NCBI RefSeq assembly: GCF_030812675.1 | Contig: NZ_JAUSTE010000008.1 | Location: 62,001 to 126,000 of the forward strand | DNA: 64,000 bases | Origin: Sinomonas atrocyanea | Lineage (GTDB): Bacteria > Actinomycetota > Actinomycetes > Actinomycetales > Micrococcaceae | Reading direction: 5' to 3' | Part shown: positions 31,474 through 46,950 of the stretch, in pieces | Numbering within the stretch: position 1 is the first letter of the stretch | Layout: the number at the start of each line of letters is the position of its first letter | Program-made: the position numbers and the translations under genes | Notes under the pieces: model-generated | What the model was told of the DNA's origin: nothing | Seen by the model: the letters and a program-made list of their open reading frames with translations, nothing else | The model's database searches: none

Positions 31474-32175
31474 TCAGCGGTCCAGGATGTAGGTCCTCAG
31501 GTCATCGAGGGTCTGCTGCATGTGCGCGTCCATGGCCGCCCGGGCCGCGACGGGGTCGTGGCGGCGCAGAGCCTCGCTCACGGCCACGTGCATCGCGATG
31601 GCGTGCTCCTGGATCTCGGGCACGGCTGAGGTCTCGGAGCGGCGCTCGGCGAGGATCCGGCTGAGCGGCTCGAACAGCACCGCGACGAACGGGTTCCCGG
31701 AGGCGTGCAGGATCACGTCGTGGAAGGCGAGGTCGGCCTCGACGAACCGCTCGAGGTCCTGGGCCCGGCGCGCCTCGCGCATCTGGTCCACGAGGGCATC
31801 GAGCGCCGCGAGGTCCTGGTCCGAGATCCGCTCGGCGGCGAGCTCGCAGGCGCCCGCCTCGAGCATCCGGCGCAGCTCGATGAGCTGGACGGCGGCATCG
31901 GAGGCGTCCGTGCCCTCGCTCGTCGCGCGGAGCACGGCGTGCAGCGAGCTCCACCGGTTGACCTGGTTGACGAACGTGCCCCGTCCGCGCTCGATCCGCA
32001 GGATGTTCTGGGCCGTGAGGGTCCGGATGGCCTCGCGCACGGTCATCCGGCTCACGTCATACCGCGAGCTCAGCTCGAGTTCGCCGGGCACGGCCGAGCC
32101 CGGAGGGAACTCGCCGGCCACGATCCGGTCCAGCAACCCGTCGGCGACCTCGCCCACGAGGGATTTGCGCGCCAC
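31474..32175 (-). CDS. FadR/GntR-family transcriptional regulator (FCD domain)
   Basis: A 233-residue regulator with an N-terminal winged helix (SSRYDVSRMTVREAIRTL, residues about 35-52, and IERGRGTFV) and a C-terminal FCD ligand domain with metal-binding candidates Asp/His (DLAFHDVI, HAIAMHVAV, MDAHMQQT). FCD regulators usually sense small carboxylic or sugar acids. It is divergent from the otnK-like gene, and a 15-bp perfect palindrome in the shared region is the probable operator. It most likely controls the four-carbon sugar-acid genes. Confidence 0.88.
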   Translation of the reverse strand: MARKSLVGEVADGLLDRIVAGEFPPGSAVPGELELSSRYDVSRMTVREAIRTLTAQNILRIERGRGTFVNQVNRWSSLHAVLRATSEGTDASDAAVQLIELRRMLEAGACELAAERISDQDLAALDALVDQMREARRAQDLERFVEADLAFHDVILHASGNPFVAVLFEPLSRILAERRSETSAVPEIQEHAIAMHVAVSEALRRHDPVAARAAMDAHMQQTLDDLRTYILDR

Positions 32176-32249
32176 TGGTCCTCTTCCTCTGGGCTGCGCC
32201 GGGCGGCCTTGCGCCGCCGCGGAGTGTGTGCCACTCTAGCAGCGACATT

Positions 32250-32264
32250 AGATGTCAGACATCT
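32250..32264. promoter_or_regulatory. Palindromic operator AGATGTC-A-GACATCT
   Basis: A perfect 15-bp palindrome (7-bp arms, 1-base centre) in the gntR-otnK divergent region. It contains the first possible otnK start codon (ATG at 32252) and overlaps a -10-like TTAGAT/TAGATG, so a bound repressor would block transcription start. Confidence 0.65.
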
Positions 32265-33769
32265 TACAGATGCCCGATCTTGCCCCGCACAAGGAAGTGT
32301 TCGCCGTGCTCCTCGAAGCCGAAGCCCTCGCCGACTACCCCGCCGAGTGCGAGATCGCCGCGCGGGAGGTCGCAGACGCCGTGGCCCGCTCCGGCCGGGT
32401 CCTCGTGGTCCTCGACGACGACCCCACTGGCACGCAGTCGGTGGCGGACCTGCCCGTCCTGACCCGGTGGGATGTCGAGGACTTCCGCTGGGCCTTCGCG
32501 GCCCGTCCCGGCGGAAGCCGTCCGGCGGCCGTCTACGTCCTCACCAACACCCGCAGCCTGGGCCCCGCCGAGGCCGCGGAGCGCAACCGCCAAGTGGTTG
32601 CCTCGGCCACCGAAGCGGCCGAGGAGGCGGGGGTCCCGCTCGCCTTCGTCAGCCGCAGCGACTCCACCCTCCGCGGCCACTTCCCGCTCGAGACGGACGT
32701 GCTCGCCGAGGCCATCGCGGCGCAGGGCGGGAAGCCCGTGGACGGCGTCGTCATGGTCCCCGCCTTCCCCGACGCCGGACGCGTCACGATCGGCGGCGAA
32801 CACTACGTCCGCAGCGGCGACGGCGCGCTCACGCCCGTAAGCGAGACCGAGTTCGCGAGGGACGCCACGTTCGGCTTCTCCACCTCCTACCTCCCCGCCT
32901 ACGTCGAGGAGAAGACCGCCGGCCGCGTGCGCGCCGCCGACGTGGTCGTGCTCGACCTCGGCACCATCCGCGCGGGAGCGGCGGCCATCGCCGACGCGAT
33001 CGCCCGCGCCCACCACGGGACCCCCATCGTCGCCGACGTCACCGGCGAGAACGACCTGCGCGCCCTCGCCCTGGGCCTCGACGAGGCCGAGCGCCGCGGC
33101 GCCTCGCTCCTGTACCGCGTGGGGCCCCCATTCGTGCGCGGACGCATCGGGCAGGAGGTCCGCGCGCCCCTCACCGCTGAGGACGTGTACGGGGACCCAG
33201 CCTCGGGCGGCCAGCGAGAGGACCTCGCTGCGGGCGGCCTCATCGTGGTCGGCTCGCATGTGGGGCTCACCACCCGGCAGCTCGAGCGGCTGACGGCCCA
33301 GCACTCCTCCGCGCGCACCATCGAGATCGACGTCAACGAGCTCCTCGACCCGCAGAGGGCCACAGGGCACCTCGAGGCGACCGTCGGCGCCGTCGTCCGC
33401 GCCCTCGCCGACGGCGACGTCATCCTCCACACCTCCCGGGTCCTCGTGAAGGACGAGGACCCGGCGAAGAGCCTCGAGATCGCCCGGACGGTGAGCGCCG
33501 CCGTCGTCAGCGTCGTGAACCGCGTCCTGGCGGCCGCGCCGCCGCGGTTCGTCATCGCCAAGGGCGGCATCACTTCCTCCGACGTGGCCGCGCACGGCCT
33601 CGAGATCCGCCGCGCCGTGGTGCGCGGGCCCATGCTCCCGGGCATCGTCTCGCTGTGGGAGCCGGTCGACGGGCCCGCCCGCGGCATCCCGTACATCGTG
33701 TTCGCCGGCAACGTGGGCGACGACGAGTCCCTCGCCCAGGTCACCCGGACCCTCAGCACGACGTTCTGA
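32252..33769 (+). CDS. Four-carbon acid sugar kinase family (DUF1537, OtnK-like)
   Basis: OtnK-type kinases phosphorylate 3-dehydro-tetronates (from threonate or erythronate) with ATP. The 505-residue product has the N-terminal substrate domain with VVLDDDPTGTQSVADL (about residues 51-66), SRSDSTLRGHFPLET (about 131-145) and the C-terminal nucleotide domain with AKGGITSSDVA and PGIVSLWE. The ATG at 32252 lies inside the palindrome; an in-frame ATG at 32270 (MPDLAPHK) may be the true start. It is followed after 12 bases by an LtnD-like dehydrogenase, the expected pathway partner. Confidence 0.87.
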   Translation: MSDILQMPDLAPHKEVFAVLLEAEALADYPAECEIAAREVADAVARSGRVLVVLDDDPTGTQSVADLPVLTRWDVEDFRWAFAARPGGSRPAAVYVLTNTRSLGPAEAAERNRQVVASATEAAEEAGVPLAFVSRSDSTLRGHFPLETDVLAEAIAAQGGKPVDGVVMVPAFPDAGRVTIGGEHYVRSGDGALTPVSETEFARDATFGFSTSYLPAYVEEKTAGRVRAADVVVLDLGTIRAGAAAIADAIARAHHGTPIVADVTGENDLRALALGLDEAERRGASLLYRVGPPFVRGRIGQEVRAPLTAEDVYGDPASGGQREDLAAGGLIVVGSHVGLTTRQLERLTAQHSSARTIEIDVNELLDPQRATGHLEATVGAVVRALADGDVILHTSRVLVKDEDPAKSLEIARTVSAAVVSVVNRVLAAAPPRFVIAKGGITSSDVAAHGLEIRRAVVRGPMLPGIVSLWEPVDGPARGIPYIVFAGNVGDDESLAQVTRTLSTTF

Positions 33770-33781
33770 CAGGAGAGACCC

Positions 33782-34705
33782 ATGACTGAGACTTCCCCGG
33801 CCGCCACCACCGTCGCCGTCCTCGGGCTCGGCGCCATGGGCCTGCCCATGGCCACCCGGCTCGCGACCGGCCTCACCGTCCATGGCTTCGACATCGCCCA
33901 GCCCCGCCTCGACCTCGCCGCAGCGGCCGGCATCAGGACCTTCGGCTCCGCGGCAGACGCCGTCGTGGGAGCCGACGCCCTGCTGCTCGCCGTCCGCAAC
34001 GGCGACCAGCTCGATGAGGTCCTGTTCGGCGAAGGCGGAGTCGCCGCCTCGCTCCGCCCCGGCGCCGTCGTGATCCTCACGAGCACGGTCGGGACCGAGG
34101 CCATTCCCGGCACCGCCGCCCGCCTCGCGGTGCTGGGCATCGGCCTCGTCGACGCCCCGCTCTCCGGGGGCCCCGTGCGCGCCGGTGAGGGCGACCTCCT
34201 CATCGTGGTGGGGGCCGCGCCATCCGACCTCGAGAAGGCGCGCCCGATCCTCGACCTCCTGGCCTCCACCCTCACCGTGGTGGGCGACAGGCCCGGCGAC
34301 GGGCAGGCGCTCAAGACGGTGAACCAGCTTCTGTGCGGCGTGCACATCGCCGCCGCTGCCGAGGCGCTCGCGCTCGCCGACGCGCTCGGCCTCGACACCG
34401 CGAAGACGCTCGAGGCCCTGGGCGCCGGGGCGGCGGGATCGTTCATGCTCTCCAATCGCGGCCCCCGCATGCTCGAGGCCTACTCCGAGGAGGGGGCCGA
34501 GGTCCTCTCGCGGCTGGACATCTTCGTCAAGGACATGGGGATCGTCGGGAAGGCCGCCCGCTCCGTGGGGCTCCCGGCCCCCGTCGCCGCGGCGGCGGAG
34601 CAGCTCTACCTGCTCGGTGCGGCCCAAGGCCTGGCGGCCGCGGACGACTCCGCCGTCATCAAGGTCGTCGCACCCGCCCCGCGGACCGCTGGACAGGCAG
34701 GCTGA
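33782..34705 (+). CDS. NAD(P)-dependent beta-hydroxyacid dehydrogenase (LtnD-like)
   Basis: A 307-residue member of the 3-hydroxyisobutyrate dehydrogenase group. It shows the Rossmann GLGAMG (15-20), the substrate-binding SGGP (128-131), catalytic Lys178 with Asn181 (LKTVNQLL) and the KDMGIV segment near the C-terminus. Next to an OtnK-like kinase the best fit is L-threonate or D-erythronate 2-dehydrogenase (LtnD), making the kinase's substrate. AGGAGAG precedes the ATG. The usual third enzyme, a class II aldolase (OtnC), is not in the window. Confidence 0.85.
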   Translation: MTETSPAATTVAVLGLGAMGLPMATRLATGLTVHGFDIAQPRLDLAAAAGIRTFGSAADAVVGADALLLAVRNGDQLDEVLFGEGGVAASLRPGAVVILTSTVGTEAIPGTAARLAVLGIGLVDAPLSGGPVRAGEGDLLIVVGAAPSDLEKARPILDLLASTLTVVGDRPGDGQALKTVNQLLCGVHIAAAAEALALADALGLDTAKTLEALGAGAAGSFMLSNRGPRMLEAYSEEGAEVLSRLDIFVKDMGIVGKAARSVGLPAPVAAAAEQLYLLGAAQGLAAADDSAVIKVVAPAPRTAGQAG

Positions 34706-34741
34706 GCGGGCATCCTGAGCCGGGTCGGTAGGCTGGTGCGC

Positions 34742-35500
34742 ATGACGACGGCGCTCATCACCGGCGCGAGCAGTGGCCTCGGGGCCGAGTTCGCGCGTCA
34801 GCTCGCGGCCCAGGGGCACGATCTCGTCCTCGTGGCGCGGGGCCAGGACCGCCTTGATGCCCTGGCGAAGGAGCTCGGGGGGCGCCATGGCGTCGCGACC
34901 GAGGTCCTCGCCGCGGACCTCACCGACCCCGTGGACCTCGGCACCGTGACCACGCGGCTCGCGGACCCCTCACGGCCCGTCGGCATCCTCGTCAACAACG
35001 CGGGGCTGGGGCTCCTCCACGACTTCCACCACACCCCGGCCGAGGAAGAGGTGCACCACCTCCGGCTCCACGTCGAGGCCGCGCTCAGGACCACCAGGGC
35101 CGTTCTCCCGGGCATGCTCGCCCGCGGGGAGGGCCGGATCGTCAACGTGGCGAGCGTCGCGGCCTTCTTGCCGCGCGGGACCTACTCGGCGGCCAAGGCC
35201 TGGCTGCTCGCCTTCAGCCGCTGGGCCAACGTGCACTACCGGCGCTCCGGGGTGCTCGTCACGGCGCTGTGCCCGGGGTTGGTGCGGACCGAGTTCCATG
35301 CGCGGATGGGCATGGAGACACGATGGATTCCCGGCTGGGCCTGGCTCCGCGCCGAGCGGGTGGTCCGCGACGGGCTCCGCGACAACCTGGCCGGCAGGTC
35401 GGTGTCCGTCCCGTCGATGCGGTACAAGGCAGTCCGCGCGGCCGCGGCCGTGCTGCCGGACCGCGTCCTCGGCGGCCCGGCGCGGCGCCCCGAGCGCTAG
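34742..35500 (+). CDS. Short-chain dehydrogenase/reductase
   Basis: A 252-residue classical SDR with the cofactor loop TGASSGLG (7-14), NNAG (85-88) and the catalytic Ser138, Tyr148 and Lys152 (YSAAK). The C-terminal basic helices suggest loose membrane association, as in related lipid-acting SDRs. A TAGGCT box (34729-34734) ends 7 bases before the ATG at 34742, so the gene is likely leaderless and separate from the upstream pair. Substrate unknown. Confidence 0.85.
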   Translation: MTTALITGASSGLGAEFARQLAAQGHDLVLVARGQDRLDALAKELGGRHGVATEVLAADLTDPVDLGTVTTRLADPSRPVGILVNNAGLGLLHDFHHTPAEEEVHHLRLHVEAALRTTRAVLPGMLARGEGRIVNVASVAAFLPRGTYSAAKAWLLAFSRWANVHYRRSGVLVTALCPGLVRTEFHARMGMETRWIPGWAWLRAERVVRDGLRDNLAGRSVSVPSMRYKAVRAAAAVLPDRVLGGPARRPER

Positions 35501-35579: not shown

Positions 35580-35777
35580 TCAGCGGCTGCCGTTCCGCTC
35601 CGCGATGGTCTGGTCTGCCTTGGACCAGAGCTCGGTGCTCACCTCCCGGATGATCACTGTGGTGTTCTCGGGAAGCGCGCCCACGCTCTCCTCGGCTGCT
35701 CTGTGGAGCGCGGAGATGAGCGAGCGCAGCTGCTCGGGGGTCCGGCCTTGGGCGATCGAGACGTCGATCAGGGGCAT
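35580..35777 (-). CDS. 4-oxalocrotonate tautomerase family protein
   Basis: A 65-residue protein with Pro directly after the initiator Met (MPLIDVSI), the catalytic base of this superfamily, and the Arg-containing stretches GRTPEQLRSLI and IIREV that bind carboxylates. Family members interconvert enol and keto acids. It is the last gene of the leftward catabolic operon, 66 bases after the monooxygenase gene, with AGGAG 7 bases before the ATG. A tautomerisation step in the same pathway is a reasonable inference. Confidence 0.88.
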   Translation of the reverse strand: MPLIDVSIAQGRTPEQLRSLISALHRAAEESVGALPENTTVIIREVSTELWSKADQTIAERNGSR

Positions 35778-35788
35778 GGGGTGCTCCT

Positions 35789-35812
35789 CATGGTCATGGT
35801 CATGGTCATGGT
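35789..35812. repeat. Tandem hexamer (CATGGT)x4
   Basis: Four perfect copies of CATGGT between the tautomerase and monooxygenase genes. Read leftward it is ATG ACC repeated, ending just before the tautomerase ribosome-binding site. Such repeats change length by slippage. Confidence 0.85.
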
Positions 35813-35843
35813 CGGGAAGCCCGACCGATGCGGATGGTCTTGG

Positions 35844-36938
35844 TCAGCGCGCCGATGCCCCCAGAGACTCCTGGGACTGCTCGTGAGCGGCCTGCTCCGT
35901 GAACGCGGGGACCACGTGCTCGATGAAGAGCTGCAGCGACTCGCGCTTGGCCTCGTGGCTCATGCTGTTGTCGATCCAGAAGCTGTACTCGTCGACGCCG
36001 AGCGCCTCGTAGTCGCGCAGGCGGGCGATGACCTCGTCAGGCGTGCCGATCATGGCGGTCGTGTGCAGGGACTCCGGCTGGAACTCCAGACGTCCCTCGA
36101 ACTTCGACTCGGGGCTGGGCTCGAGGAAGCCGTTCACCGGGGTGGACTTGTTGCCGAACCACGCGTCGAAGGTGCGGTAGAAGCGGTTGATCGCCTCCGC
36201 GGCGGGACGCCAGCCGTCCGGGTCCTCGGGGGAGTGGACGTGGGTGTGGCGCAGGACCATGAGATCGGGGCGGGGAACCTCGGGGTTGTTGGCGCAGGCG
36301 TCGTCGAACTTCCGCTTGAGGTCGGCGACCTCCTCGTCACCCTTCATCAGTGGGGTCACCATGACGTTGCAGCCCTGGGAGACGGCGAAGTTGTGCGAGT
36401 CGGGGTCACGGGCCGCGACCCACATCGGCGGGTTCGGCTGCTGGACCGGCTTGGGAACGCTGGTCGAGGTGGGGAACTGCCAGATCTCGCCGTTGTGCGC
36501 ATAGTCGCCGCGCCACAGCTCGCGCACGGCCGGCACGAGCTCGCGCAGGTGCTTCCCGCCGTCGGTCGCGGGAAGGCCCCCGGCGATCCGGTCGAACTCG
36601 ATCTGGTACGCCCCGCGCGCGAGGCCGACCTCCATGCGCCCGTTGCTGATCACGTCCAAGAGGGCGCACTCACCGGCGACACGGATCGGGTTCCAGAACG
36701 GCGCGATGATCGTGCCGGCCCCGAGTCGGATCGTCGAGGTCTGGCCGGCAAGATAGGCCAGCAGCGGGATCGGGCTGGGCGAGATGGTGTATTCCATGGC
36801 GTGGTGCTCGCCGATCCAGACCGTGCTGAATCCGCCGGCCTCCGCCATCAGCGTGAGTTCGGTGAGGTTCTCGAACAGCTCACGGTGGGTGACTGACTCA
36901 TCCCAGCGCTCCATGTGGACGAATAGGGAAAATCGCAT
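35844..36938 (-). CDS. LLM-class (luciferase-like) flavin-dependent monooxygenase
   Basis: A 364-residue protein with the bacterial-luciferase TIM-barrel pattern: MRFSLFVHMERWDES at the start, VWIGEHHAMEYTISPSP (about residues 40-56), RLGAGTIIAPFWNPIRVAGE, and DVISNGRMEVGLARG. These enzymes use reduced FMN supplied by a separate reductase to insert oxygen or open rings. The SnoaL-flavin reductase fusion at 41.3 kb is the obvious partner. The ATG at 36938 has AGGAG upstream; the longer frame to 37508 is not credible. It lies between an aldehyde dehydrogenase and a tautomerase in a seven-gene leftward set. Confidence 0.9.
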   Translation of the reverse strand: MRFSLFVHMERWDESVTHRELFENLTELTLMAEAGGFSTVWIGEHHAMEYTISPSPIPLLAYLAGQTSTIRLGAGTIIAPFWNPIRVAGECALLDVISNGRMEVGLARGAYQIEFDRIAGGLPATDGGKHLRELVPAVRELWRGDYAHNGEIWQFPTSTSVPKPVQQPNPPMWVAARDPDSHNFAVSQGCNVMVTPLMKGDEEVADLKRKFDDACANNPEVPRPDLMVLRHTHVHSPEDPDGWRPAAEAINRFYRTFDAWFGNKSTPVNGFLEPSPESKFEGRLEFQPESLHTTAMIGTPDEVIARLRDYEALGVDEYSFWIDNSMSHEAKRESLQLFIEHVVPAFTEQAAHEQSQESLGASAR

Positions 36939-37053
36939 GAGTGCTCCTGACTGCGCTCGGTCCGCTCGCGGCGGAGATTGGTGCGGGAGGGCCGATGCCG
37001 GCCCATGGCGGGGGCGGAGGAGTGCCTGCTCTGCGTATGCAGCAGGCCGGAGG

Positions 37054-38535
37054 TCAGCTCCGCATGATGAAGGGGTCGGCGACAGGCTCCTCGCTGGTGT
37101 TGATCCACACGCTCTTGAGCCGCGTGTACTCGTGCATCGACTCGAGGCCGTGCTCGATGCCGACGCCGCTGGACTTGAAGCCCTCGCGGGGGGACATGGG
37201 GGACATGGCGCGGTAGGTGTTGACCCACACGGTCCCGGCCTCAAGGTGCCTGGCCATGCGGTGCGCCCGCGCGAGGCTCTTGGTCCAGACGCCGGCGGCG
37301 AGCCCATACTCGGTGTCGTTCGCGAGTGGGAGGACTTCCTCCTCGGTGTCGAACGGCATGATGGCGGCGACGGGCCCGAAGATCTCCTCGCGGACCACCC
37401 GCATGCGGTTGTCCACATCGGTGAGGACGGTGGGGGAGTAGAAGTAGCCCGGAAGCCCGGTGTCCGGGCGCTGGCCGCCATACGAGACCGTTGCGCCTTC
37501 CTCGACACCGAGGTTCACGTAGGATTCCACCTTGCTCAGCTGGTCGCCGAAGGCGAGCGGCCCGAGTTCGGTGGCGTCCTCGAGCGGGTTGCCGATGACG
37601 ATCCGCTTCGCCCGCTCGGCGACGCGCTCGACGAGCTCGTCGTAGACGGACCGGTGGGCGAACACACGGCTGCCGGCGATGCAGGTCTGGCCTGCCGCGG
37701 CGAAGATCCCGGCGACGACGCCCAGGGAGGCACTGGCGACGTCGGCATCCTCGAAGACGATGTTCGGGCTCTTGCCGCCGAGCTCCAGGGTGCAGCCGAT
37801 GAAGCGGGACGCCGCTGAGGAGGCGATCGCCCGACCGGTCGCGGTGGAGCCAGTGAAGCTGATCTTGGCGATCCGCCGGTCCTCCACGAGCGCTGCCCCG
37901 GCCTCGCGGCCGAGGCCCGTGACGACGTTGACGACGCCGTCGGGGAAGCCCGCCTCCGAGGCGAGCTCGGCGAGGCGCAGGACCGTGCGGGACGTGTACT
38001 CGGACGGCTTGATGACCAGGGTGTTCCCGGCGGCCAGGGCGGGGGCGAGCTTGGAGACGGTCAGCGTCAGCGGCGAGTTCCACGGGGTGATGGCGCCGAC
38101 GACGCCGAGCGGCTCACGGACGGTGTAGTTCAGGATGGCCGGGTCCATCCCGGGGATCTGGCTTCCCTGGACCTTGTCGGCGAGACCGGCGTAGTAGTAG
38201 AGGTACTCCGGCAGCGTGCGCAGCTGCACCCTCATCTCCCGCAGGAGCTTGCCGTTGTCCTCGGTCTCGAGCCGGGCGAGCTCGTCGCCGTGCTCTCCGA
38301 CGAGGTCGGCGAGGCGGCGGAGGAGGTGTCCGCGCCGGGTGGGGGTGAGGTTGGACCAGTCTGGGCCGTCGAAGGCCTTCGAGGCCGCATCGATCGCTGC
38401 CTCGATGTCGGCCTGAGTGCCTCGGGCGGCCTCGTAGAGCACCTCGAGGGTCGCGGGGTTGGTGCTTTCGAGGTACTGTCCTTCGGCTGGCGGCGTCCAC
38501 CGGCCGCCGATGAAGTGGTCAATCCGTACTGGCAT
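37054..38535 (-). CDS. Aldehyde dehydrogenase family protein
   Basis: A 493-residue NAD(P)-dependent aldehyde dehydrogenase of the common class. It has the oxyanion Asn153 (PWNSP), cofactor motif FTGST (about residue 227), general base Glu251 (ELGGKSP) and nucleophile Cys285 (GQTCIAGSR), so it looks fully active. Its ATG lies within the end of the preceding alpha/beta hydrolase gene (17-base overlap), so they are co-translated. It probably oxidises the aldehyde left after monooxygenase ring opening. Confidence 0.92.
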   Translation of the reverse strand: MPVRIDHFIGGRWTPPAEGQYLESTNPATLEVLYEAARGTQADIEAAIDAASKAFDGPDWSNLTPTRRGHLLRRLADLVGEHGDELARLETEDNGKLLREMRVQLRTLPEYLYYYAGLADKVQGSQIPGMDPAILNYTVREPLGVVGAITPWNSPLTLTVSKLAPALAAGNTLVIKPSEYTSRTVLRLAELASEAGFPDGVVNVVTGLGREAGAALVEDRRIAKISFTGSTATGRAIASSAASRFIGCTLELGGKSPNIVFEDADVASASLGVVAGIFAAAGQTCIAGSRVFAHRSVYDELVERVAERAKRIVIGNPLEDATELGPLAFGDQLSKVESYVNLGVEEGATVSYGGQRPDTGLPGYFYSPTVLTDVDNRMRVVREEIFGPVAAIMPFDTEEEVLPLANDTEYGLAAGVWTKSLARAHRMARHLEAGTVWVNTYRAMSPMSPREGFKSSGVGIEHGLESMHEYTRLKSVWINTSEEPVADPFIMRS

Positions 38536-39289
38536 GGTGCATCTTCCTTTCGGCCTCGTCCGCGAACTCGGCGATGAGGCGGGCGAGCTGCTCGGGCTGC
38601 TCGAGGGGGAGCATGTGGCGCGCGCCGTCGACGACGAGGGTGCGGGCTCCGGGCACGAGCCGGCCGAGGCGCAGGGTCATCTCGGGAGTGGAGCCCGGGT
38701 CATCGCTGCCGGTCACCGCCAGAGTCGGCGCGGTGATGAGCGGCAGGGCGTTGGCGGCGTCGCGGTCACCGGTGGCGAAGACCTGGTAGGCGTGGAGGTA
38801 GGACTCGCGGTCGTTGGACAGCAGGACTTCCCGCACCTGCTCGACGAGGTGGGGCGCGACCCGATCGGTCTCGGGGAACCAGCGTTCGACTGCGGCCTCC
38901 GCGCTCGCGGCGAAGTCGCCGCGGGCCGTCCTGAGCCGGCGGCCGACGGCATCGGCCTCGGCCTCGGTGCGGTCGCAGACGGAGCTGACGCAGACGAGCG
39001 AGAGGATCCGTTCCGGCGCCCGCGCAGCCAGCTCCTGGGCGATCAGGGCACCGAGGGAGAAACCGACGAGGTGCGCCCGCGGCGGGAGCCGCCGCGCGAC
39101 GTCGTCTGCCATCTTCGCCAGCGTGGTGGGCGTGCGCAGGTGAGGCTGGCCGCCGTGGCCGGGAAGGTCGAGGGCCATGACCTCCCGCCCGGCCAGCCAG
39201 AGCGCGCCGTCGGCGATGAGGGCGTCCCACATCGAGCGGTCCAGCCCCACTCCGTGGAGGAGGACGACCGGGGCCTGGGACTCCTCCAC
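38519..39289 (-). CDS. Alpha/beta hydrolase
   Basis: A 256-residue hydrolase with oxyanion HGVG (12-15), nucleophile Ser78 (GFSLG), acid Asp196/197 (TGSDDPG) and His225 (GARHMLP). It is closest in layout to 3-oxoadipate enol-lactonase or RutD-like enzymes that split C-C, C-O or amide bonds of ring-opened products. It sits one base after the DUF1185 gene and overlaps the aldehyde dehydrogenase gene, so it belongs to the same operon. Confidence 0.88.
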   Translation of the reverse strand: MEESQAPVVLLHGVGLDRSMWDALIADGALWLAGREVMALDLPGHGGQPHLRTPTTLAKMADDVARRLPPRAHLVGFSLGALIAQELAARAPERILSLVCVSSVCDRTEAEADAVGRRLRTARGDFAASAEAAVERWFPETDRVAPHLVEQVREVLLSNDRESYLHAYQVFATGDRDAANALPLITAPTLAVTGSDDPGSTPEMTLRLGRLVPGARTLVVDGARHMLPLEQPEQLARLIAEFADEAERKMHHASTD

Positions 39290-39290
39290 G

Positions 39291-39842
39291 CTACTGCTCG
39301 CTCGTCAGCGGGGCGAGGCGCTGCTGCGGGCGGCCCTGGGCCGCCGCAGCGAGGGCCACAATGATCTCCCCCGGGTGCGGCGCGTCGGCGATCCGCACCT
39401 CGATGCTCTGGTGGTGGGAGCGGACCGTTGCGTCGGTCTTGTGCTTGAGCGGGATGTCGAAGGTGACGCCTGCGCGGCCGCGCTTCTCAACGGCCGGCAG
39501 GAGGGTTGTGGCCTCCGCCGCCTTGCGGAAGTGGTCGCCGAACTGGAGGGTGTGGATCAGTGCGGAGCCGTGCTCGATCTCGCCGTCGAGGCCCACGATG
39601 GCCGCCTTGCCGTACGCCTCGACCGGAACGCCGAGCGCCTCGATCACCCGGGGCGCCAGAAGCGCGCCGATATCGGAGGCGTTCTCGCGGATGCCGTCGC
39701 TCAGGTCCTCGACGAAGGGCTGGCCGTCCCACGGGTTCTCGATCACCGCGGCGACCACGGCGACGCGGGCCGCGGGCTCCACGGCACGGCCGCCTTCGCG
39801 TGCCGTCTCGTCGATGAGGGTGACGATCTTCCTGACATTCAT
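39291..39842 (-). CDS. DUF1185 / 'amino acid synthesis' family protein, copy 1
   Basis: A 183-residue protein of the AA_synth (DUF1185) family, whose function is not established. Conserved features include VIENPW (about residue 35), GKAAIVGLDGEIEHGSALIHT (core AAIVGLDGEIEHG, about 77-89), LKHKTDATVRSHH and EVRIADAPHPGEI. The ATG at 39842 has AGGAG 7 bases upstream and overlaps the stop of the second copy (ATGA); an earlier in-frame start at 39869 is rejected. Its gene partners suggest a catabolic rather than biosynthetic role. Confidence 0.85.
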   Translation of the reverse strand: MNVRKIVTLIDETAREGGRAVEPAARVAVVAAVIENPWDGQPFVEDLSDGIRENASDIGALLAPRVIEALGVPVEAYGKAAIVGLDGEIEHGSALIHTLQFGDHFRKAAEATTLLPAVEKRGRAGVTFDIPLKHKTDATVRSHHQSIEVRIADAPHPGEIIVALAAAAQGRPQQRLAPLTSEQ

Positions 39843-40459
39843 CTGGTTGCTCCTACGAGTGTGCTCCATGAGACCTGGGCATCGGTGGTCCGGTCTCCGA
39901 TTCGGGCATGGGGGCGGGGGCCAGTCGACGCCGCCGCGACGACGACGATCTCATCCGGGCGCGGCGCGTCCGGGATACGGATGTCGACGGTCTGGTAGTG
40001 GGTCCGGGTGGCTGCCGCCGTCTTGTGCCACATGGGCACCACAAGGGCCTCTCCGGCGTCGCCCCGGGAGTCGGCGAAGCAGATGATCGAGGTGCCTTCG
40101 AGGGACTCGCGCAGCAGGTTCCCGAAGTAGGGCGTGTGGATGAGGGCGCCCCCGTGCTCGATCTCGCCGGCGGTCCCGACGATGGCGCCCTTGCCGAACG
40201 CCTCGACGGCATCCGCGCCGCCGAGCCCGGACAGGAGCCGGTCGATCAGCCTGGCGGCGATCGCCGGCGCGAGCCAGGCGGCCGCTTCCGAGAGGTCGGC
40301 GTCCGGGCCGAGGCGCGCCCAGGGATTGGCGACGACCGCGGCCGCGGCGGCTCGGGCGGCGGGGATGAGGGGAGCGGTCCCGTTTTCGAGCAGGACCTCC
40401 TCCCTGGAGAAGACGACCTTGCGGATCAGCTCCTCTGGCTGGTCTGGGAAGTTGCGCAC
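39839..40459 (-). CDS. DUF1185 / 'amino acid synthesis' family protein, copy 2
   Basis: A 206-residue paralogue of the next gene, sharing VVANPWARLG, GKGAIVGTAGEIEHGGALIHTPYFGN (core IVGTAGEIEHGGALIH), PMWHKTAAATRTHYQTVDIRIPDAPRPDEI. The two diverge strongly at the N-terminus and tail, so they probably form a heteromer or act on different steps rather than being a recent duplication. It is the first structural gene after the GntR regulator (47-base gap) and overlaps copy 1 by four bases. Confidence 0.85.
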   Translation of the reverse strand: MRNFPDQPEELIRKVVFSREEVLLENGTAPLIPAARAAAAAVVANPWARLGPDADLSEAAAWLAPAIAARLIDRLLSGLGGADAVEAFGKGAIVGTAGEIEHGGALIHTPYFGNLLRESLEGTSIICFADSRGDAGEALVVPMWHKTAAATRTHYQTVDIRIPDAPRPDEIVVVAAASTGPRPHARIGDRTTDAQVSWSTLVGATR

Positions 40460-40506
40460 TATGGGGCCATGACTTTCTGGTGAGGACAGCGAGAGGCTGT
40501 GGTGGT

Positions 40507-41196
40507 TCAGTTCCGGGCCGCGGAGCTCAAGGACGAGTCCGGCATCAGTGCCTCGCGGGAGGATGCATAGACGTGGTTCCTCATCGCGGATTCCGCGCCG
40601 AAGGGATCCTTGTGCTGGATCATCTCGAGCACGGAGCGGTGCTCCTGGGTGGAGGCAGCAATGCGCCCGGGGTGCTCGACCGTGCGCAGCACGAGCCGCT
40701 GGTAGGCGAGCTGGTTCATGAGCCGCTCGTAGTGTTCGACGAGCTTGTGGTTGTCCGACCCGTGCACGATCGCCCAGTGGAACTCGTGCACGAGGCGCGC
40801 GTAGCCGTCCGCGTCCCCGGCGAGGACCGCTTCCTCCGAGTCCGAGAGGTTGCGGCGCAGCACGGCGAGCTCGGGAACCTCGCCCCGGCGTGCCATGAGG
40901 GAGGCCGCGAGTCCCTCGAGGGACTCCTTGAGCTGGAACAGCTCGACGATCTCCCTGCGCGTTGGCTCCCGCACGAACGTTCCGACCTTGGGGCGGATCT
41001 CCACCAGGCCCTCATGCTGGAGCTGCTTGAGCGCTTCGCGGACGGGGGTGCGGCTGACGTCGAAGGCCTGCGCGAGGTAGGCCTCGGGCAGGAGGGCGCC
41101 CGGAGGGAAATCGCCGCCGAGGACGAGCTGGCGGATGCGGTCGAGGAGGCCAACCTGTTCGCCGTTGGCGGTGCTGAGGCCGAGAGCGTCTTGCAT
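40507..41196 (-). CDS. GntR-family regulator (FCD domain) of the catabolic cluster
   Basis: A 229-residue regulator with a winged helix (AQAFDVSRTPVREALKQLQ, residues about 44-62; RPKVGTFV) and an FCD domain (LVHEFHWAIVHGSDNHKLVEHY, core FHWAIVHGSDNHKL). It heads the leftward operon and faces the SnoaL-flavin reductase gene. Two TGCATGCA palindromes, one overlapping its own start codon, are the likely binding sites, so it probably represses itself and both arms until a pathway substrate binds. Confidence 0.87.
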   Translation of the reverse strand: MQDALGLSTANGEQVGLLDRIRQLVLGGDFPPGALLPEAYLAQAFDVSRTPVREALKQLQHEGLVEIRPKVGTFVREPTRREIVELFQLKESLEGLAASLMARRGEVPELAVLRRNLSDSEEAVLAGDADGYARLVHEFHWAIVHGSDNHKLVEHYERLMNQLAYQRLVLRTVEHPGRIAASTQEHRSVLEMIQHKDPFGAESAMRNHVYASSREALMPDSSLSSAARN

Positions 41197-41220
41197 GCAT
41201 CACAGCGTAGGTTGCATGCA
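41192..41220. promoter_or_regulatory. Twin TGCATGCA operators of the GntR regulator
   Basis: TTGCATGCAT occurs at 41191-41200 and again at 41212-41221. Each contains the palindrome TGCATGCA (41192-41199, 41213-41220). The spacing of 21 bases centre to centre puts both on the same DNA face. The first overlaps the regulator's ATG. Confidence 0.65.
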
Positions 41221-41300
41221 TGATGAGCGTCAAGAGGGTCTGCCGATTCCCTAGTGATCGACCGGTTTCCCGGGACTTTCCCCTAATTTCCGGCAAACCG

Positions 41301-41330
41301 TTGACCTGTCCATGTGAGCTGCCTTACCTT
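41301..41330 (+). promoter_or_regulatory. Promoter of the SnoaL-flavin reductase gene
   Basis: -35 TTGACC (41301-41306) and -10 TACCTT (41325-41330) are 18 bases apart, one of the best sigma-70-type promoters in the window. The -10 ends 7 bases before the ATG at 41338, so the transcript is leaderless. Confidence 0.65.
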
Positions 41331-41337
41331 CGTTGGT

Positions 41338-42282
41338 ATGCAACAGACGCTTGAACCGCTCATCACGTCCGCTTGGCTCGCCGCGTGGGACCAGGGTGAC
41401 CTGGGCGCGCTCGATGCGCTCATGGCCGAGGGCTACACCCGGACGAGCAAGGCCACCGGTGCGGCCATCGACCTCGCCGGCCTCAAGGCAGAGATCGCGG
41501 CCGTCCGGGAGGCGTTCCCGGACCTGCGCACCACCGTCGACGACGTGGTCGAAGGCGAGGGCACCGTCGCCGTGTTCTGGACCTCGACCGGTACGCATAC
41601 CCGCGAATACCTCGGTGTTCCGGCCACTGGCCTCACCGTCCAGACCCGGGGCTCGAACATCCTCGTGCTCGACGCCCAGGGCCGCGTCCTGAGGGAGACC
41701 GTGACCTGGGACGGCAGCGAGCTCCTGGCGGGCCTCGGCATCCGCCCCCTGCGGGGCATCGCCGCCCCTCCCGCCCCCGAACCGGAGGAGGAGGGCGCTG
41801 ACCCGGCCCTGGACGTCATGAAGGCCTTCAACCGCCAGTTCGTCACCGGGGTCACTGTGGTGACCACCAAGGAAGGAGACACGCCGAAAGGCCTCGCCGC
41901 CAACGCCTACTGCTCCATCTCACTCGAACCGCCGCTCGTGCTGGTCTGCGTCCAGAAGACCTCCAGCACCTATCCGGCGCTCTTCTCCTCCAGCCACCTC
42001 GGCATCAACATCCTCGGCGCGGACCAGCGCTCCACAGTAGGGGTCTTCGCGTCGAAGTCGCCCGACAAGTTCGCGGAGGTCGACTGGCACGAGGGGCCGC
42101 ACGGCAGCCCGCTCATCGACGGCTCGGCCGCCTCCATCGAGGCCGAGATCCAGGAGCGTTTCCAGGCGAAGACCCATACGGTCTTCATCTGCCGCGTCCG
42201 CCACGCCGAGGTCGACGGCGCCGCCCCCATGGTCTACAAGGCCGGGCACTTCTTCGACGGCGGCCAGCTCGTCGAACTCTGA
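41338..42282 (+). CDS. SnoaL-like domain fused to FMN-dependent flavin reductase
   Basis: A 314-residue two-domain protein. Residues about 1-125 form a SnoaL/NTF2-like cone (ITSAWLAAWDQGDLGALDALMAEGYTR, core WLAAWDQGDLGAL; VEGEGTVAVFWTSTGTHT). After an acidic linker (PEPEEEGADP), residues about 150-314 are a flavin reductase of the HpaC/RutF type (FVTGVTVVTT, GLAANAYCSISLEPPLVLVCVQ in part, HTVFICRV, GHFFDGG). The reductase would supply FMNH2 to the LLM monooxygenase in the opposite arm; the SnoaL part could bind or convert the unstable product. The ATG at 41338 is set by the promoter; an earlier in-frame start at 41314 lies inside it. Confidence 0.85.
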   Translation: MQQTLEPLITSAWLAAWDQGDLGALDALMAEGYTRTSKATGAAIDLAGLKAEIAAVREAFPDLRTTVDDVVEGEGTVAVFWTSTGTHTREYLGVPATGLTVQTRGSNILVLDAQGRVLRETVTWDGSELLAGLGIRPLRGIAAPPAPEPEEEGADPALDVMKAFNRQFVTGVTVVTTKEGDTPKGLAANAYCSISLEPPLVLVCVQKTSSTYPALFSSSHLGINILGADQRSTVGVFASKSPDKFAEVDWHEGPHGSPLIDGSAASIEAEIQERFQAKTHTVFICRVRHAEVDGAAPMVYKAGHFFDGGQLVEL

Positions 42283-42290
42283 AAGGCAGC

Positions 42291-42328
42291 GGCGCGGCTG
42301 AGACCTCGCACAGGACAGCAGCCGCGCC
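42291..42328 (+). terminator. Hairpin after the flavin reductase gene
   Basis: GGCGCGGCTG (42291-42300) pairs with CAGCCGCGCC (42319-42328) with an 18-base loop. It could limit read-through into the permease gene. Confidence 0.4.
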
Positions 42329-42351
42329 GAGCCCATCTGCTCAGACAAGCA

Positions 42352-42369
42352 GTGCACACAGGTGTGCAC
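42352..42369. promoter_or_regulatory. 18-bp palindrome upstream of the NCS1 permease
   Basis: GTGCACAC-AG-GTGTGCAC, perfect 8-bp arms with a 2-base centre, 19 bases before the permease ATG. It is not the TGCATGCA site of the cluster regulator, so a second regulator may act here. Confidence 0.6.
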
Positions 42370-42388
42370 CTCCACTTTAGGACTAACC

Positions 42389-43825
42389 ATGAGCCCAGAC
42401 ACCGTCCGCGCAGCAGCAAGCGAGGACAGCATCGCCGAGGACCGCGGATACCGCGACAGCCTCACCAAGATCGAGCCCTACGGCATTGAGCACATTCCCG
42501 ACGTCGAACGGCACGGGCGCCCCCGGTCCCAGTTCTTCCTCTGGTTCGCGGCCGGGATGAACTTCCCCATCGTCGTCCTCGGCTTCAGCGCCGCCTACTT
42601 CGGCCTGCCCTTCTGGGCCGCCGTGCTCGCCATCGTGCTCGCAGGCGTCATCTCGTCGGCCGGCATGGGGTACCTCTCCGCCATGGGCGTCCGATTGGGC
42701 GTCCCGCAGCAGATGCAGGGCAGGGGCCCGCTCGGCTTCATCGGCAACCTGTTCCCGGTCGCCTACGTCAACGTCTTTGCCGGGATCGGCTGGGCGGCCG
42801 TGACGGTCATCCTCGGCGGCAAGGCCATCGCCCTCCTCACTGGCATCCCGTTCTGGATCTCATCCCTGGTCCTCATGGGAATCCAGCTGGGCGTCGCGGT
42901 CATCGGCTACAACCTCATCCACTTCCTCCAGCGGGTGCTCTCGTTCGTCCTCGTGGTCGGCTTCGTCTTCATCACCGCCGTCAGCGCCGTCAACGGGCAC
43001 ATCGTCAACGAGGTCAACACCGCCGCCAAGGGCTTCGACGGCATCGGCGGCTGGATCGTCTTCTTCGGCTGGTTCTTCTCGTTCATCGTCGCCTGGATGC
43101 CCTTCGCCTCGGACTACTCCCGTTATCTGCCGAACACCCCCGGAAATCGCCGCGGCGCGGGGTGGGCCACGATGCTCGGCAACGCCGTCACGATGATCTG
43201 GATGGGCGTCCTCGGTACGATCCTCGGCTCTACGGCGACCGCCAGCGACAGCATCGGCGCCCTCAAGGAGATCATGGGACCCTGGGCTCCGATCGGCCTC
43301 GCCATCGTCGCCATCTCCTCGTTCACCCAGAACTTCCTCAACGTCTACGGTGGCGCGATCTCCATTCAGACCATGGGAATCCCGGTCAAGCGCCACACCG
43401 GCGTCATCTTCATCTGCGTGATCTCCTACGTGGTCGCTCTCTGGGGCCAGGACGGCTTCAATGAGGGCTTCACCGCCTTCCTCAACCTCACCGCCTACTG
43501 CATCGCCCCCTACGTCGCCGTCCTCGTCTGCGACTACCTCTTCGGCGGCCGCCGCAGCGAACGCGGGCTCCGCGAGCTCTTCGACAAGAAGCGGAAGTTC
43601 GAATGGGGCTTCGTCGCCTGGGCCGTCGGCGTCATTGCTTCCTCGCCCTTCTGGATGTCCTCGATTTACACCGGCCCGATCGCCAAGGCCCTGCCCGGCA
43701 TCGGGGACCTCTCCTACTACGTCGGCGCTCTCGTCGCTGCCCTCGTCTACTTCGCCACGTATCGCCTCAAGCGCCTCTCCGGACACGACATGCTCGACCG
43801 CACCGTCGCGGCGCGGCAGTTCTGA
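42389..43825 (+). CDS. NCS1-family nucleobase/hydantoin-type permease
   Basis: A 478-residue transporter with about 12 membrane segments and NCS1 hallmarks: an N-terminal polar tail ending in IEPYGIEHIPDVERHGRP, the GxxxGxG-rich third segment, WMPFASDYSRYLP, and FTQNFLNVYGGAISIQ. NCS1 proteins import cytosine, purines, uracil, allantoin, hydantoins, thiamine or pyridoxine. Its place in the cluster therefore suggests a small polar N-heterocycle or amide as substrate. The ATG at 42389 is preferred to 42362, which lies within the palindrome region. The next gene begins one base after its stop. Confidence 0.9.
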   Translation: MSPDTVRAAASEDSIAEDRGYRDSLTKIEPYGIEHIPDVERHGRPRSQFFLWFAAGMNFPIVVLGFSAAYFGLPFWAAVLAIVLAGVISSAGMGYLSAMGVRLGVPQQMQGRGPLGFIGNLFPVAYVNVFAGIGWAAVTVILGGKAIALLTGIPFWISSLVLMGIQLGVAVIGYNLIHFLQRVLSFVLVVGFVFITAVSAVNGHIVNEVNTAAKGFDGIGGWIVFFGWFFSFIVAWMPFASDYSRYLPNTPGNRRGAGWATMLGNAVTMIWMGVLGTILGSTATASDSIGALKEIMGPWAPIGLAIVAISSFTQNFLNVYGGAISIQTMGIPVKRHTGVIFICVISYVVALWGQDGFNEGFTAFLNLTAYCIAPYVAVLVCDYLFGGRRSERGLRELFDKKRKFEWGFVAWAVGVIASSPFWMSSIYTGPIAKALPGIGDLSYYVGALVAALVYFATYRLKRLSGHDMLDRTVAARQF

Positions 43826-43826
43826 G

Positions 43827-44372
43827 ATGGGGAGCCCGGACAGGGGCGGACGCCTGGTGGTCGTCGACATGCAGCGTGCCTTCCGGGGGAAGACCGCATG
43901 GCACGTACCACGCTTCGACGAGGCCGCCGCCGGAATCGCGAAGCTCAGTGAGGCCAGCTGGATCCCGCCCGTCTACACGCGCTTCGTCAGGGATGAGGCG
44001 GAGGCAGGCTCATGGTCCGCGTACTACGCGCGCTGGAGCGAGATGCGGCTGGCCTCCGGCTCAGAGGAGTGGGCACTCGCCGTGCCGCTTCCGCCCGGTG
44101 CGACGGTCCTCGACGCGCCGACGTTCAGCAAATGGGGTCCGGAGCTCGCCTCGGCCATCCCCGAAGGCGAGAGGATGCTCCTCGCGGGTGTGGCCACGGA
44201 CTGCTGCGTGCTCTCGACGGCGCTCGCGGCCGTCGACGCAGGCCGCTACGTCACCGTCGTCTCGGACGCCTGTGCCGGGGCGAGCGACGACGCCCATGAG
44301 CAGGCCCTGGCCCTGATGCAGATGCTCTCCCCGATGTGCGAGACGACAACGGTGGCGGACCTGCTCGCGTGA
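43827..44372 (+). CDS. Isochorismatase-like cysteine amidohydrolase
   Basis: A 181-residue cysteine hydrolase with the intact triad Asp14 (VVVDMQRAF), Lys102 (FSKWGP) and Cys127 (GVATDCCVLST) with the preceding cis-peptide region. Relatives include ureidoacrylate amidohydrolase (RutB), N-carbamoylsarcosine amidase, maleamate amidase and nicotinamidase. It is translationally coupled to the NCS1 permease. In this setting it most likely removes a formyl, carbamoyl or amide group from the ring-opened product. Confidence 0.88.
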   Translation: MGSPDRGGRLVVVDMQRAFRGKTAWHVPRFDEAAAGIAKLSEASWIPPVYTRFVRDEAEAGSWSAYYARWSEMRLASGSEEWALAVPLPPGATVLDAPTFSKWGPELASAIPEGERMLLAGVATDCCVLSTALAAVDAGRYVTVVSDACAGASDDAHEQALALMQMLSPMCETTTVADLLA

Positions 44373-44383
44373 GGCGAAGGGCC

Positions 44384-44411
44384 GGGGGCGCTCCCGCGAC
44401 GGAGCGTCCCC
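44384..44411 (+). terminator. Hairpin after the amidohydrolase gene
   Basis: GGGGGCGCTCC (44384-44394) pairs with GGAGCGTCCCC (44401-44411) with a bulge, loop CGCGAC. It separates the permease-amidohydrolase pair from the Nudix gene. Confidence 0.4.
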
Positions 44412-44459
44412 GACCCCGCCTGCCCCAAGCACCACCAGACCGAATCCCCCGGAGGACCG

Positions 44460-45008
44460 ATGACGATCACTGACGAGACGACAGTCTCCTCAGCTGAAGC
44501 CCCCAGAGCTGGGACAGCCGTCCGCGAAGTCGTGGCCATCGTCCTGGAACACCATGGCCGCATCGCCCTCCTCAGGCGGAGCAGCGCAGTCCACCACGAT
44601 CAGGGGCTCTGGCACTGCGTCACCGGTTACCTCGATCCCGGGACCACTCCACGGCAGCAGGCCTTCGTGGAACTCTATGAGGAGACCGGCCTCACCCAGG
44701 AGGACGTCGTGCTTGAACGCTGCCGTCCGCTCCTCCTGCCCGACAGGAGCGGCGCGCCCTGGCTTGTGCACACCTTCAGGGCCTCCACCAGCCGGCGTCG
44801 CCTCCGCATCAATGGGGAGCACGACGCGTACAGGTGGGCAAAGCTCGCCAAGGTTCGCCGCTTCAGCAACCGAGTCGCATGGCTGGGCACAGTGCTCGAG
44901 GCTACTCTGCGTTGCGATCAGGGCCGCTCGCCGGGCGCACCCGAGGAACCTCGGTCCTCACCGGGCGACCTCGTGGAGTTCCGCAGGGAAGGGGGCCGCT
45001 CCGTCTAG
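44460..45008 (+). CDS. Nudix-fold protein with degenerate Nudix box
   Basis: A 182-residue protein whose residues about 22-145 follow the Nudix fold (VVAIVLEHHGRIALLRRSS, then a box region TGYLDPGTTPRQQAFVELYEETGL). Compared with GX5EX7REUXEEXGU, the first glutamate is replaced (GTT for GES) and the conserved arginine is Val, while EETGL is kept; pyrophosphohydrolase activity is therefore uncertain. A GGAGG ribosome-binding site precedes the ATG. The C-terminal 35 residues are a disordered Pro/Arg-rich tail. The 140 bases after it show nothing convincing. Confidence 0.75.
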   Translation: MTITDETTVSSAEAPRAGTAVREVVAIVLEHHGRIALLRRSSAVHHDQGLWHCVTGYLDPGTTPRQQAFVELYEETGLTQEDVVLERCRPLLLPDRSGAPWLVHTFRASTSRRRLRINGEHDAYRWAKLAKVRRFSNRVAWLGTVLEATLRCDQGRSPGAPEEPRSSPGDLVEFRREGGRSV

Positions 45009-46242: not shown

Positions 46243-46950
46243 ATGGCAGACTCGACCAGCTCCCCCCGCACCGCCCGGAACGCCGGCCCACGCGCCGCCC
46301 GGGCCCAGGGCGCCCCCCGCCTCGAAGCGCTCGTCCTCGACGGGCTCGAGCCCGGTCTCGCGGGCGACCCCGAGGCCGGGCACCGCACGGAGGGGCTCGC
46401 GTTCGACGGCGCCGACTTCACGGGCCTCGAGCTCGGCGCCGCCACCTTCTCGGAGTGCGCCTTCCGGGATGTCACGGCGCACGACGCCGACCTCGGCTCG
46501 GCCGCGTTCCTCGACTGCCGGTTCGAGCGGCTCAACGCCCCGAGCCTGCCTGCACCGCGGAGCCGCTGGCGCGGGGTGGAGATCGACGCCTCCCGGATCG
46601 GCTCGGCGGAGCTCTACGACGCCGAGCTCAACGGCGTCCTCGTGCGCGGCTGCAAGCTCGGCTACGTCAACCTGCGCGGCGCGCGCCTGCGGGATGTGAA
46701 GTTCGAGGACTGCGCGATCGAGGAGCTCGACCTCGGCCACGCCTCGGCCCTGCGCGTGGCCTTCGAGGGCACCCAGGTCGACGCGCTCGACGTCAGGGGC
46801 GCCTCCCTCGAGCACGTGGACATGCGAGGAGCCCGCCTCTCCCGGGTGACCGGGATCGACGGGCTCCGTGGGGCGACCCTGAGCAGCCTTCAGGCCGCCG
46901 AGCTCGCGGAGCTCATGGCCGAGCGGCTCGGGATCGCCATCGAGGGCTGA
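46243..46950 (+). CDS. Pentapeptide repeat protein
   Basis: A 235-residue protein containing runs of A(D/N)LXX-type pentapeptides from about residue 60 to 210 (for example FTGLELGAATFSECAF, and RGARLRDVKFEDCAIEEL in part), which fold into a right-handed quadrilateral beta-helix. Some relatives mimic DNA and protect gyrase; many have no known role. There is no signal peptide. A TACCCT box 6 bases before the ATG suggests a leaderless mRNA. It is convergent with the MHS transporter (6-base gap). Confidence 0.87.
   Translation: MADSTSSPRTARNAGPRAARAQGAPRLEALVLDGLEPGLAGDPEAGHRTEGLAFDGADFTGLELGAATFSECAFRDVTAHDADLGSAAFLDCRFERLNAPSLPAPRSRWRGVEIDASRIGSAELYDAELNGVLVRGCKLGYVNLRGARLRDVKFEDCAIEELDLGHASALRVAFEGTQVDALDVRGASLEHVDMRGARLSRVTGIDGLRGATLSSLQAAELAELMAERLGIAIEG

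Follow-up and report, generated by a model that had tools for sequence, protein, structure and literature searches.

A Divergent Gene Cluster of Sinomonas atrocyanea, Probably an Actinobacterial Form of the tgn Cluster for Trigonelline Catabolism

Organization of the Locus

The window, i.e., the whole 64 kb stretch of DNA that was analyzed, contains a cluster of eleven genes arranged in two divergent arms, seven leftward and four rightward (Table 1). All eleven genes of an earlier, sequence-only reading were found at or near where it had placed them, and each has strong curated Pfam support. The LLM gene is likely to start at the ATG at position 36938, the longer ORF that reaches 37508 being mechanical, and the isochorismatase gene most likely starts directly after the permease stop codon (the ORF list has a longer frame from 43461). 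The left flank of the cluster (31520–35500) encodes an SBD_N/NBD_C protein (PF07005/PF17042), an NAD-binding 3-hydroxyisobutyrate dehydrogenase-like protein and an SDR, and resembles a cluster for acid-sugar catabolism unrelated to this one. A pentapeptide-repeat protein is encoded nearby at 46243–46950.

Table 1. Genes and candidate operator of the cluster, with positions in the window.
Feature	Position	Strand	Pfam support	Assignment or remark
4-Oxalocrotonate tautomerase-like protein (4-OT)	35580..35777	-	PF01361, E 3.7e-12	65 aa
LLM flavin monooxygenase	35844..36938	-	PF00296, E 7e-56	TgnB-type
Aldehyde dehydrogenase (ALDH)	37054..38535	-	PF00171	TgnC-type
α/β hydrolase	38519..39289	-	PF12697/PF00561	TgnD position
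DUF1185/AA_synth, copy a	39291..39869	-	PF06684, E 3e-60	
DUF1185/AA_synth, copy b	39839..40459	-	PF06684, E 7e-53	
GntR/FCD regulator	40507..41196	-	PF00392 + PF07729	
Candidate operator	41191..41220			Paired TGCATGCA palindromes, divergent promoter
SnoaL–flavin reductase fusion	41314..42282	+	PF07366 + PF01613 (Flavin_Reduct)	TgnA role
NCS1-family permease	42362..43825	+	PF02133	
Isochorismatase-like hydrolase	43827..44372	+	PF00857, E 2e-26	Scored on ORF 43461–44372
Nudix hydrolase	44460..45008	+	PF00293, E 1.8e-11	

Two TGCATGCA palindromes lie 21 bp apart between the arms, one of them overlapping the GntR start codon, and these are the only copies of the motif in the window. Six related loci have a similar pair in the corresponding position, with a spacing of 21 bp in L027, L082, L112, L113, and L129 and of 20 bp in L100; elsewhere among the 39 actinobacterial loci described below, no such palindrome pair was found. 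The position of the pair between the arms and its recurrence in related loci suggest that both arms share it as a likely operator.

Conservation in Actinobacteria

Homologous loci were drawn by similarity to the LLM or DUF1185 proteins, giving 39 actinobacterial loci with the window included. The LLM gene, the α/β hydrolase gene and both DUF1185 genes are present in 39/39, although the LLM and DUF1185 counts are partly set by construction. ALDH, flavin reductase and GntR genes are each found in 38 of the loci, a SnoaL domain in 37, 4-OT in 31, and the isochorismatase in 8. Given this recurrence, the arrangement is not due to chance. The proposal that both arms constitute a single catabolic system is thus borne out by co-occurrence and by the shared candidate operator. 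One LLM relative (76% identical to the window protein) lies at 9339–10577 of L056 in genome G005 with the rest of the cluster missing within the same 20 kb, and is possibly a remnant.

The accessory parts of the cluster are more variable. SnoaL and reductase are encoded by separate adjoining ORFs in many relatives. The transporter is a BCCT protein in 24 of the 39 loci and an NCS1 protein in 13. Nudix proteins that are 56–63% identical to that of the window are encoded beside the clusters of L027, L082, and L129, and a riboflavin kinase gene is also present in L027, L043, and L129. In the isochorismatase of the window and its seven relatives (L069, L074, L075, L077, L079, L082, L136), the lysine at the RutB position is replaced, and the subfamily keeps a lysine in an (F/L)xKWG motif together with a GVAT(D/E)CC motif.

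Relation to the tgn Trigonelline Pathway

A trigonelline (N-methylnicotinate) degradation pathway of Acinetobacter, tgn, with the proteins TgnA–TgnF, was reportedly described by Perchat and colleagues in 2018. A search of plasmids, for which the query was an LLM homologue from Pantoea, led to a plasmid of Acinetobacter sp. PK01, on which genes annotated as tgnA, tgnB, and tgnC stand beside genes for a GntR regulator, a DUF1185 protein, an α/β hydrolase, an NCS1 permease, and a succinate semialdehyde dehydrogenase (SSADH). The window thus resembles tgn in combining a two-component LLM monooxygenase, a TgnC-type dehydrogenase, an α/β hydrolase, DUF1185, GntR, and NCS1 in one cluster. The sequence-only reading had proposed an undescribed system and had taken the NCS1 permease and the DUF1185 proteins as signs of novelty; it overlooked tgn, the closest characterized system, in which DUF1185, NCS1, ALDH, and α/β hydrolase genes accompany the LLM gene, so that both supposed novelties are tgn features. 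The class of substrate that it chose, a small nitrogen heterocycle whose ring is opened by a flavin monooxygenase of the two-component type, appears to have been right. The locus is probably an actinobacterial variant of the tgn cluster (estimated probability about 0.75), and thus most likely a rearranged variant of a described pathway rather than a new kind of pathway.

TgnA and TgnB open the aromatic ring (PMC8269262). Over its full length, the window LLM shares 52% identity with the TgnB of Acinetobacter sp. PK01, a protein that bears this name by pipeline annotation, and an identity near 50% does not fix the substrate. When TgnB is compared with the window's genome, the cluster LLM is the best match (418 bits) and the next LLM protein reaches 48 bits at 25% identity. 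In a tree with partial support inside the LLM clade, the window protein falls in a separate clade, distinct from that of tgnB.

The ALDH is 46% identical to annotated TgnC and is the best match to TgnC in the genome (447 bits versus 347 for the next); it is slightly closer, at 52%, to the ALDH of an Agrobacterium cluster, which counts against the tgn reading. The hydrolase is only 28–30% identical to the one in the tgn position, for which it is nevertheless the best match in the genome (91 versus 39 bits), and Pseudomonas hydrolases bridge the two (38–40% identity to that of the window and 35–38% to that of tgn). SSADH (TgnE) is absent from the cluster; a 43% homologue is encoded elsewhere in the genome, and SSADH genes are linked to the cluster in some relatives' loci. 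A more distant cluster with LLM, ALDH, hydrolase, DUF1185, and flavin reductase genes lies near glycine betaine ABC genes on an Agrobacterium fabrum plasmid (L035, 2802–8591).

The two DUF1185 genes are the only PF06684 genes in the 4.12 Mb genome. Copies a and b are 41% and 43% identical to the tgn protein, respectively, and both keep the residues that are conserved in the cavity of the solved structure of BB2672. In a study of 7-hydroxycoumarin that cites the trigonelline pathway, the DUF1185-family protein under investigation is compared with its homologue TgnF from Acinetobacter baylyi (PMC7913881).

Several features set the window apart from tgn and are new relative to it. The window has two DUF1185 copies, whereas tgn has one, and it adds 4-OT, a Nudix gene, and an isochorismatase of the subfamily with a moved lysine, none of which occurs in the Acinetobacter cluster. 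In addition, the window cluster lacks SSADH and is split into two divergent arms. The reductase domains of the window protein and TgnA are 36–37% identical, but the architectures differ: the former carries an N-terminal SnoaL domain, whereas the tgn protein has a C-terminal domain of about 145 amino acids that belongs to no Pfam family and whose structure has been solved in 3RH7-like proteins. A Pfam search with this C-terminal domain returned nothing convincing, and its identification as SnoaL was rejected, as profile comparison gave nothing. A weak, register-correct likeness between it and the Nudix protein (probability 2%, P 0.024) serves as a lead only. The NCS1 permeases of the window and of Acinetobacter tgn are only 27% identical.

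Related Loci in Pseudomonas and S. meliloti

The Pseudomonas LLM proteins are 77–80% identical to that of the window, and their genes are accompanied by reductase and NCS1 genes only, with an isochorismatase gene and a second NCS1 gene also present at some of these loci. All eight tested Pseudomonas genomes that carry this LLM have a second locus with DUF1185 and a TgnC-type ALDH (52–53%). In the three second loci that were read (L153, L154, L155), DUF1185, hydrolase, ALDH, flavin reductase, and GntR genes are all present, and one of the three also has an SSADH gene whose product is 70% identical to tgn SSADH. As read from these sequences, a trigonelline-type pathway in Pseudomonas would be split over two loci.

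The S. meliloti homologue is located on pSymA, where nif genes lie on one side of it and noe/nod genes on the other. Wild-type S. meliloti grows on trigonelline and a pSymA-deleted strain does not (PMC4207669), and the title of an earlier report places trigonelline catabolism on pSym (Goldmann, 1991). The location of the homologue and pSymA-dependent growth together suggest that the homologue itself is the trigonelline locus. As in the window, DUF1185, α/β hydrolase, flavin reductase, LLM, ALDH, and GntR genes occur together at this locus, but it differs in having an ABC transporter, a NIPSNAP protein, and SSADH, and in its single direction of transcription.

Substrate and Alternative Pathways

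Clues to the substrate come from genes that accompany the cluster in other organisms. A GmaS-like glutamine synthetase and GATase/GXGXG/Glu_synthase proteins, the latter fitting N-methylglutamate synthase by their domains, are encoded in 4 of the 39 actinobacterial loci, and subunits of the sarcosine-oxidase type, which flank tgn in Acinetobacter, have matches near the LLM gene in several Pseudomonas loci. Such genes would be expected if methylamine is released. BCCT proteins are a family of betaine carriers. The BCCT carriers, the methylamine genes, and SSADH together fit a betaine degraded to methylamine and succinate semialdehyde; this favors trigonelline over homarine or pyridine, and trigonelline is therefore inferred as the substrate. 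Methylamine assimilation genes of the window's own genome were considered as candidates and rejected: this genome has no close GmaS, and, judging from ORF starts, the C21 match adjoins an apparent sarcosine oxidase operon.

A different betaine, homarine (N-methylpicolinate) or a related compound, might undergo the same ring opening between C5 and C6, but this is clearly unlikely. The separation of the window LLM from the tgnB clade would suit a different substrate, BCCT carriers suit any betaine, and homarine catabolism uses the N-methylglutamate enzyme Mgd (PMC13390433), subunits of which type match near the Pseudomonas LLM loci. However, linkage of SSADH in several loci, including the tgn-type enzyme of Pseudomonas, fits a succinate semialdehyde end product, and GmaS with N-methylglutamate synthase fits release of free methylamine. 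Moreover, TgnA/TgnB are argued to be sterically hindered on homarine (PMC8269262).

A non-methylated heterocycle handled by an Arthrobacter Pyr-type pyridine or nicotinate pathway is a very improbable substrate. Arthrobacter accounts for several carriers of the cluster, and the Pyr pathway of Arthrobacter sp. 68b shares the logic of flavin-dependent ring opening followed by aldehyde dehydrogenation and hydrolysis. That pathway, however, uses an amidohydrolase in place of an α/β hydrolase and is not known to have DUF1185 or a betaine carrier, whereas BCCT carriers and methylamine genes recur in the cluster loci, and no amidohydrolase-superfamily Pfam match was found among the eleven cluster genes.

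A new uracil-type pathway has a negligible likelihood, even though the LLM oxygenase, flavin reductase, isochorismatase-like, and α/β hydrolase types of E. coli Rut are all present in the window: RutA joins the LLM tree only via a very long branch, as a very distant outgroup; no RutA is among the solved structures that match the window LLM; the isochorismatase lacks the RutB-position lysine and is confined to a minority of the loci; and the E. coli rut operon has no counterpart of ALDH or DUF1185. A grouping of the LLM protein with RutA and of the isochorismatase with RutB, which the sequence-only reading had named as what would make the pathway a known one, was checked; neither the LLM nor the isochorismatase is RutA or RutB, respectively, or a close relative of it. 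The Rut reading was rejected on the LLM tree, the isochorismatase residues, and gene content, and the Pyr reading on gene content.

Proposed Pathway

The trigonelline pathway proposed here builds on the gene content, homology, and co-occurrence described above, and its substrate, each reaction, and the order of steps are modeled on tgn, the chemistry of the individual steps being general knowledge of that pathway. GntR would control both arms from the paired candidate operator between them. The NCS1 permease (BCCT in most relatives) would import the pyridinium betaine, the SnoaL–flavin reductase would make FMNH2, and the TgnB-type LLM would open the ring between C5 and C6 to give an N-methylformamido semialdehyde. 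The TgnC-type dehydrogenase would oxidize this aldehyde, and the TgnD-position hydrolase would act on the N-formyl intermediate, releasing formate and CO2 along with methylamine and succinate semialdehyde. The last of these is predicted to be converted to succinate by a dehydrogenase whose gene lies elsewhere in the genome. The DUF1185 proteins may have an assisting role. 4-OT and the isochorismatase would be accessories, with a possible role for 4-OT in isomerization of the ring-opened intermediate. A more elaborate version with extra steps is conceivable but doubtful: the isochorismatase with the displaced lysine would let N1-methylnicotinamide enter the pathway, and the ring-opened intermediate would be processed, in a manner unlike that of tgn, by SnoaL, 4-OT, and a possible hetero-oligomer of DUF1185.

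If the tgn reading is correct, a pathway known from Proteobacteria would extend to soil actinobacteria and, in two loci, to Pseudomonas. Trigonelline is a common plant betaine, and the exchange of BCCT and NCS1 carriers together with the methylamine genes could help to recognize, from their genomes, the soil bacteria that feed on plant betaines. The roughly 40 defined loci would also allow the role of DUF1185, a family with an already solved structure, to be tested. Two DUF1185 genes also occur in a different operon on a Sulfitobacter plasmid (L034, 7420–8585), with genes for UPF0280, xanthine-dehydrogenase-type subunits, a ring-hydroxylating dioxygenase, and an ABC transporter; this operon is possibly another N-heterocycle pathway that uses a DUF1185 pair.
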